Of a DNA stretch of 64,000 nt, positions 52,906 through 53,154 are shown in pieces. Every line of letters begins with the position of its first letter. Position 1 is the stretch's first letter. Source of the DNA: Candidatus Woesearchaeota archaeon (GTDB lineage Archaea > Nanobdellota > Nanobdellia > Woesearchaeales > GCA-2686295); assembly GCA_013202845.1 (NCBI GenBank), contig JABMPT010000012.1, forward strand, positions 1 to 64,000, written 5' to 3'. A model generated the notes under the pieces. It was not told the DNA's origin, ran no database searches, and saw only the letters and a program-made list of their open reading frames with translations. The position numbers and the translations under genes were made by a program.

Positions 52906-52922
52906 AAAATATTTATAAAAAG
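52906..52922 (+). promoter_or_regulatory. TATA box for tRNA-Val(GAC)
   Basis: AAAATATTTATAAAAAGG is an archaeal TATA element about 25-35 bases before the tRNA 5' end at 52944, the expected distance. Confidence 0.55.
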
Positions 52923-52943: not shown

Positions 52944-53016
52944 GGGCCTGTGGTCTAGTGGCTATGACATCGCCTCGACATGGCGGGAATCGTGAGTTCG
53001 AGTCTCACCGGGCCCA
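52944..53016 (+). tRNA. tRNA-Val, anticodon GAC (C33 in the loop)
   Basis: A 73-base cloverleaf: acceptor GGGCCTG/CGGGCCC with discriminator A, D arm GTC/GAC, anticodon stem TCGCC/GGCGG with loop TCGACAT, T stem GTGAG/CTCAC and loop TTCGAGT. In the only register that pairs, position 33 is C in place of the near-universal U, and the anticodon is GAC, reading GUC and GUU. Shared stems with tRNA-Val(CAC) support Val identity. Confidence 0.85.
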
Positions 53017-53145
53017 TTGACGGTATCGTCCGTCAACACCTAGTGTGGCATAAAGCCACACAGTTTGATGCGTAGCATCGCGACTGCAAGGAGCATGATG
53101 GTGTGAACGGACATAACCGTTCTTCCGAGTTTCACCGGGCCCATG
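53017..53145 (+). ncRNA. Hairpin chain ending in a copy of the tRNA 3' end
   Basis: Immediately after the tRNA come four perfect hairpins: TTGACGG/CCGTCAA (53017-53036), GTGTGGC/GCCACAC (53043-53061), GATGC/GCATC (53067-53079) and GAACGG/CCGTTC (53105-53122). The segment closes with CGAGTTTCACCGGGCCCAT (53126-53144), matching the tRNA 3' end at 52999-53017 in 18 of 19 bases, then a T-run. Weak similarity to the tRNA interior (CTAGTG..GCATA; CATCGC..GAC) is also visible. It may be a structured RNA co-transcribed with the tRNA, a degenerated second tRNA broken by hairpins, or a tiny insertion between att-like repeats. No protein is coded here. Confidence 0.55.
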
Positions 53146-53154
53146 ATTTTTTTA
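53146..53154 (+). terminator. T-run terminator after tRNA and hairpin chain
   Basis: ATTTTTTTAA follows the repeated tRNA 3' end. None stands directly after the first tRNA copy, so transcription probably runs through the hairpin chain. Confidence 0.5.

Follow-up and report, generated by a model that had tools for sequence, protein, structure and literature searches.

A hairpin-rich element, probably mobile, beside tRNA-Val(GAC) in a Woesearchaeota archaeon and its family at tRNA ends and in tRNA loops

The tRNA-Val(GAC) locus

Analysis of the window, the whole 64,000-nt stretch at positions 1 to 64,000 (forward strand) of contig JABMPT010000012.1 from Candidatus Woesearchaeota archaeon (assembly GCA_013202845.1), showed an intact tRNA-Val(GAC) gene (52944-53016; Rfam RF00005, 55.6 bits), followed directly by a hairpin cassette that is probably a copy of a dispersed mobile element, a second, truncated copy of the tRNA 3' end (E2', 53126-53144; also present in relatives) and a run of T residues (53147-53153). 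All features lie on the plus strand, and the layout described in the initial annotation, namely tRNA, four perfect hairpins, near-copy of the tRNA 3' end and T-run, is borne out. The cassette consists of two covarying modules, in which hairpins H1 to H4 were read from the sequence as perfect stems. Module A (53017-53063; model R2, 66.9 bits) comprises H1 (TTGACGG/CCGTCAA, 7 bp, 53017-53036), the linker ACACCTA and H2 (GTGTGGC/GCCACAC, 7 bp, 53043-53061). The core of module B (53064-53104; models R1/R3, 55.4 and 54.5 bits) contains H3 (GATGC/GCATC, 5 bp, 53067-53079), the covarying tandem-G-A hairpin H5 (GC-GA-CU-GCA-AG-GA-GC, 53080-53094) and a linker with GGTG (53100-53103), and is followed by H4 (GAACGG/CCGTTC, 6 bp, 53105-53122).

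Regarding the duplicated tRNA end, CGAGTTTCACCGGGCCCA (53126-53143) repeats CGAGTCTCACCGGGCCCA (52999-53016) at 17 of 18 positions, or 18 of 19 when the following T is counted, and the native copy (52999-53017), which extends from the T-loop to the discriminator, is flush with the element (flank-repeat score 15). The sole mismatch, C to T, preserves T-stem pairing, a G-C pair becoming G-U. E2' covers only about tRNA nucleotides 56-73 and lacks any 5' portion, and the suggestion that the cassette and E2' are a second valine tRNA disrupted by hairpins is therefore not supported. The repeats are separated by ~110 nt, between which no open reading frame of at least 60 aa, an integrase gene included, was detected. 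A TATA-like box (52911-52919), presumably functional, is located ~27 nt upstream of tRNA nucleotide 1 without a module B leader before this tRNA, and the T-run is the probable terminator of a tRNA-plus-trailer transcript. No bulge-helix-bulge (BHB) motif was found in the window copy, the tRNA being uninterrupted and CGAA/TGAA absent before E2'. In Rfam searches the tRNA was the sole family matched in the window and ten element loci gave no convincing match to the element; a group I intron or another Rfam ribozyme or small RNA was rejected for want of such a match.

The cassette stretch folds more strongly than its dinucleotide shuffles (z = -3.1). The element ends, H1-CACC and GGTG-H4, are inverted relative to each other and form an inverted repeat (53017-53040 versus 53100-53122), and the minus strand of 53084-53123 is recognised by the module A model R2 (E = 0.003). 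The GGTG of the module B linker is able to pair with the CACC of module A, and an alternative long pairing of the H4 region was seen in the fold. H5, the inverted relation of the two ends and the actual recurrence of the cassette go beyond the initial annotation. A structured RNA processed out of the tRNA transcript, another of the ideas first put forward, is plausible, given that the cassette precedes the only T-run and that module B is found as a tRNA leader as well.

Compensatory change in the hairpins

In a first, hand-collected alignment of module A, both sides had changed in 10 of 14 pairs. The larger module A alignment (59 rows) contained 143 both-side-changed cells versus 34 in shuffles and the module B alignment (52 rows) 57 versus 18, with none of 500 shuffles matching the value of either module, the copies being interrelated, the shuffles ignoring relatedness and alignment A5 having been fitted to its own structure. 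The signal vanishes for structures shifted by 1-3 columns. The module B linker, GCGACYRMARGGAGCATGAT, forms a hairpin of its own around a tandem G·A that 46 of 52 copies possess, with a G-C to C-G switch at columns 40-59 and C-G to U-A switches at columns 46-52 and 42-57; this helix lies outside the model used for fitting alignment A4. The evidence that the stems of both modules are kept by compensatory change is strong, and with it the proposal of the initial annotation that the structure is under selection is upheld. Chance hairpins combined with a local duplication, carrying no wider meaning, might be supposed in a small AT-rich genome with many short repeats, and can be practically dismissed: home-made covariance models, given a short calibration, matched the window copy at E = 6.9e-17 and 5.9e-14 (this copy was among the training sequences) and reached 1e-10 for copies in families outside the training set.

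Distribution of the element family

A search with the 218-nt stretch of the locus brought up matches at several more tRNA genes of the window's own genome, and further ones in the same-genus genome G004. Reading of the loci resolved module A as H1, ACACCTAG/ACACCGAAG and H2, and module B as H3, the linker GCGACYRMARGGAGCATGAT and the closing hairpin H4. Of 288 genomes sampled from across the archaeal order, 43 contained module A (E <= 1e-4), many of them beyond the window's family, and six contained module B, these belonging to the window's genus and one sister genus only; these are metagenome-assembled genomes, and many context assignments were made by eye. An exact-pattern scan of named genomes returned one true relative and seven bacterial matches taken as chance. 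Viral contigs, scanned with one pattern as a narrow test, gave no match to the element, and a virus-borne element was rejected on the strength of that test. No description of this hairpin element was found in the open-access literature, most subscription journals and preprints lying outside its coverage, and the hairpin-rich family is apparently undescribed. At two loci (L042 and L044) an additional similar sequence of ~60 nt, AATAGnnnGACCTnATATTA, precedes module A in one case and follows it in the other.

Of the 19 distinct elements in the window's own genome, 14 are located at or within tRNA genes (binomial P ~3e-22, with ~1.5% of the genome within 150 nt of a tRNA, 47 tRNAs assumed and loci assigned by reading). 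Three states recur, namely beside an intact tRNA together with a copy of its end (state 1), inside a tRNA loop (state 2) and as a leader formed by module B (state 3).

Duplicated tRNA ends

In state 1 an intact tRNA stands on one side of the element and a truncated copy of its end on the other, as in the window. Copies of 3' ends include L038 (Pro), L041 (Val), L050 (Arg), L141 (Lys), L147, L154 (Leu), L159, L174 and L178-L181, and copies of 5' ends include L045, L151, L159, L163, L164, L172, L182, L183 and L187; the recurrence of the cassette at many tRNA ends, including those of its own genome, together with such duplications, agrees with what had been anticipated for a mobile cassette. Direct repeats flush with the element (score at least 15) were present in 16 of 92 clusters, compared with 0.48 expected from pairing the flanks of different loci. 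The duplications are mostly ~15-25 nt (18-19 nt in the window) and extend at least 3 nt beyond the mature tRNA ends at, for example, L038, L151, L154, L164, L178, L180 and L188, and the event therefore took place at the DNA level. L154 has two element-plus-end units in succession, of which the one farther from the tRNA has degenerated, and L055 shows a similar trend. The same arrangement occurs at the 3' ends of two apparently intact protein genes, with duplications of ~23 nt at L152 (G002:C11:6100-7400) and ~86 nt at L190 (G246:C35:600-1300). In distant families H1 adjoins the broken end of the tRNA fragment, on whichever strand this requires.

In E2' of L141, L050, L174, L179 and L180, T-loop positions 57-58 repeatedly show changes or small insertions (TTCGAAT to TTCnGGAT or TTCGGAT). 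Changes near position 58 had suggested reverse transcription of mature tRNA, which was rejected as a general mechanism since the duplications exceed the tRNA ends and reverse transcriptase is absent in G000 and G004.

The fragments also resemble the halves of split tRNA genes, module A coming after the 5' fragments and module B before the 3' fragments, so that module B and E2' could form a separately transcribed, trans-spliced 3' part. This is very unlikely, as an intact tRNA of the same isotype stands beside nearly every fragment, no promoter is recognisable between the tRNA and E2' in the window, and the E2' junctions that were read do not have the CGAA/TGAA half of the BHB of T-loop introns; trans-spliced halves are largely refuted by the missing BHB and the adjacent intact tRNA. 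The absence of CGAA/TGAA, seen by inspection at state 1 junctions, would be expected if the intact tRNA makes splicing unnecessary.

Copies inside tRNA loops

A script search detected 14 T-loop insertions at position 59/60; a fifteenth match, at L055, was a false pairing and is not counted. In 13 of the 14, T-loop bases 54-57 are fully paired with the last four intron bases ahead of the 3' bulge (TTCG with CGAA, CGAG or CGGA, and TTCA with TGAA), exon G/A covarying with intron C/T (Fisher P = 0.003), and the T-loop copies have the 4-bp exon-intron helix between 3-nt bulges that defines a BHB. Insertions with a BHB were also identified by reading in a D-loop (GTGG/CCAC, L055) and an anticodon loop (CTTC/GAAG, L052). 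A splicing endonuclease gene is present, and judging from the pairing the loop copies would be spliced out as BHB introns. At L052 (G005:C60:13000-14000, minus strand) a tRNA-Arg(TCG) is interrupted in the D-loop, anticodon loop and T-loop, all three insertions being hairpin-rich; automatic tRNA sets of this archaeal order may be incomplete, because ARAGORN reported no tRNA at this thrice-interrupted gene.

The same isoacceptor can be found in different states across species. The tRNA-Val(GAC) has a 3'-end copy with E2' in the window, a T-loop intron with module B downstream in G001 and G005 (L055, L162) and no 3' element in G003 and G004 (L053, L056). Similarly, tRNA-Pro has a 3'-end copy in G000 (L038) versus a T-loop intron in G004 (L140), and tRNA-Leu(UAG) has a 3'-end array in G002 (L154) versus a T-loop intron in G004 (L139). 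Intron gain and end duplication are therefore tied to one element family.

These alternative states bear on the chief rival explanation, a displaced T-loop intron, in which an ancestral tRNA-Val with a BHB intron at 59/60 (E1-I-E2) would have undergone tandem duplication of I-E2 and precise loss of the first intron, giving E1-E2-I-E2' with no separate insertion at the tRNA end. It explains tRNA-Val well: the tRNA-Val(GAC) genes of G001 and G005, with their T-loop intron, downstream module B and (degenerate) E2', are the predicted intermediates, and E2' mostly starts at or near the intron site 59/60. It explains less well the inverted module A copies, the D-stem breakpoints and the protein-gene ends. 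E1' breakpoints fall at positions 12-17, away from the site where D-loop introns usually lie, the module A copies beside E2' in other families (L174, L178-L181, L185, L188) run in the opposite orientation to the tRNA, the protein-gene ends at L152 and L190 have the same pattern in the absence of a BHB intron, and there is no BHB remnant before E2' in the window. On balance this route is unlikely.

Module B as a tRNA leader

In state 3, module B alone is flush with tRNA nucleotide 1, mostly ~20-40 nt downstream of a TATA-like box, and at least two species share such leaders at orthologous tRNAs for Met, Gly, Glu(UUC) and Pro. All six genus members gave a strong match to RNase P RNA, and the leader is therefore not an RNase P substitute. 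Module B copies also adjoin protein genes (L138, L128, L129 and L125, 515-555, minus strand), including sites before and after ribosomal protein L35Ae and one just upstream of a start codon; these are possible mRNA leaders or relics.

The leaders invite the explanation that the hairpins are a functional trailer or leader RNA. They would be retained for a role in tRNA processing or as a stable small RNA, to which the tandem-G-A hairpin might contribute, and gene conversion would carry them from one tRNA locus to another. Selection at the RNA level is indeed indicated by the compensatory changes and by the tandem GA motif, and the leaders at orthologous tRNAs end at nucleotide 1 with a TATA-like box upstream. 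However, the cassette is missing behind tRNA-Val(GAC) in G003 and G004, copies are also present away from tRNAs and in both orientations, and with RNase P RNA present a substitute is unneeded. This explanation is improbable.

A non-autonomous tRNA-targeting element

The cassette is probably a dispersed, non-autonomous, tRNA-targeting mobile element, which was inserted here by duplicating the 3' end of tRNA-Val, and the att-like mobile cassette is the best supported of the three ideas raised by the initial annotation. We infer mobility as such, together with splicing and with the transcription and processing of a trailer. The element would enter the T-loop/3' end of tRNA-Val(GAC) and duplicate the tRNA end, much as integrases and casposases insert at tRNA ends, leaving the tRNA intact with a truncated 3'-end copy beyond the element. 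In the window, transcription would probably continue through the element as far as the T-run, and the resulting trailer would be cut off at the 3' end of the tRNA. An element entering a tRNA loop without duplication could persist if its end pairs into a BHB with that loop, be it the conserved T-loop or the D-loop or anticodon loop, and is spliceable as an intron, and module B may also serve as a structured tRNA leader.

Several points weigh against this interpretation. No transposition event and no empty/filled pair of near-identical strains was seen, several element copies have no recognisable duplication, and E1-E2-I-E2' is also obtainable by the tandem duplication and intron loss described above. 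The order-wide matches to module A were read by eye at only ~25 loci, and the training copies of models R1/R2 were first seen near tRNAs. Regarding enzymes, a dedicated mobility gene is absent from the element. G000 has a single tyrosine recombinase, which is Xer-like (268 aa), and one Y1 transposase; no Y1 transposase was found in the element-rich G004 or in G002, G003 and G051, and RVT_1 had no match in G000, G002, G003, G004 or G051; neither a reverse transcriptase nor a Y1 transposase need be resident.

The Xer-like gene lies within ~3-4 kb of the element-bearing tRNA-Val(TAC)/L35Ae locus in both G000 (L198, G000:C13:49000-53500) and G004 (L199, G004:C3:33500-38804), which may be simple synteny.

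Comparison with known systems

Palindromic elements derived from IS200/IS605 have hairpin ends and non-autonomous copies and transpose without target duplication. The element described here is likewise non-autonomous with hairpin ends, but the element-bearing G002, G003, G004 and G051 have no Y1 transposase. In Thermoproteales, similar BHB introns are present in different tRNA genes (Fujishima et al., 2010, Mol Biol Evol 27:2233, via PMC4090602); according to that account they are shared between tRNA genes, occupy non-canonical sites including 59/60, have BHB junctions and are inferred to move at the DNA level by an unknown mechanism, all of which resembles the present case. Unlike those introns, the modules of this DPANN order are found beyond the tRNA too, forming leaders or trailers accompanied by duplicated tRNA ends, and the element has multiple covarying hairpins and inverted repeats at its ends. 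At the tRNA-Thr locus of Caldiarchaeum a mobile element was held responsible for a 5' tRNA fragment and for intron gain (Sugahara et al., 2012, PMC3293823), the fragment likewise adjoining the intact tRNA as a direct repeat tied to intron gain. There a single locus contains a 1.8 kb insert with a recombinase gene, whereas here dozens of loci have inserts of ~60-300 bp and no gene.

Integrated elements of archaea insert at the 3' ends of tRNA genes and of protein genes and, rarely, at tRNA 5' ends, and in a study of Thaumarchaeota their att sites are short (median 17 bp) and tandem insertions are also known (PMC6563490; PMC9897764). They share with the window the intact tRNA and the truncated tRNA end across the insert, but measure kilobases and usually encode an integrase, while the present element is made of hairpins only. 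Casposase generates 14-15 bp target duplications at tRNA 3' ends (PMC6977970); casposons combine duplication at tRNA 3' ends with terminal inverted repeats (PMC6977970) and tandem insertion (PMC6563490), a combination that this element may share, but they encode Cas1 and PolB, and the duplications described here, beginning in the T-loop, mostly measure ~15-25 bp. None of the compared systems is a 60-130 nt covarying hairpin element.

Significance for archaeal tRNA genes

The gain of tRNA introns and the fragmentation of tRNA genes in archaea are an open question, movement having been inferred earlier and its vehicle being unsettled. Related species carry intron and end-duplication copies at the same isoacceptors, so that comparing strains offers a test of intron gain. 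The family also contributes a tRNA leader that is an apparently undescribed structured RNA containing a tandem-G·A hairpin, and is a warning that tRNA annotation in this archaeal order can overlook multiply interrupted genes. A wider reading, possible but doubtful at present, is that of an order-wide mobile structured element whose two states, insertion at a tRNA end with a protective duplication and a spliceable BHB intron, interconvert; the enzyme moving it would not be its own but one of the host or one acquired by hitch-hiking (Xer, Cas1 or the splicing machinery). If true, tRNA intron gain and tRNA fragmentation in archaea would have their missing vehicle in this element. The element family may show the origin of archaeal tRNA introns.
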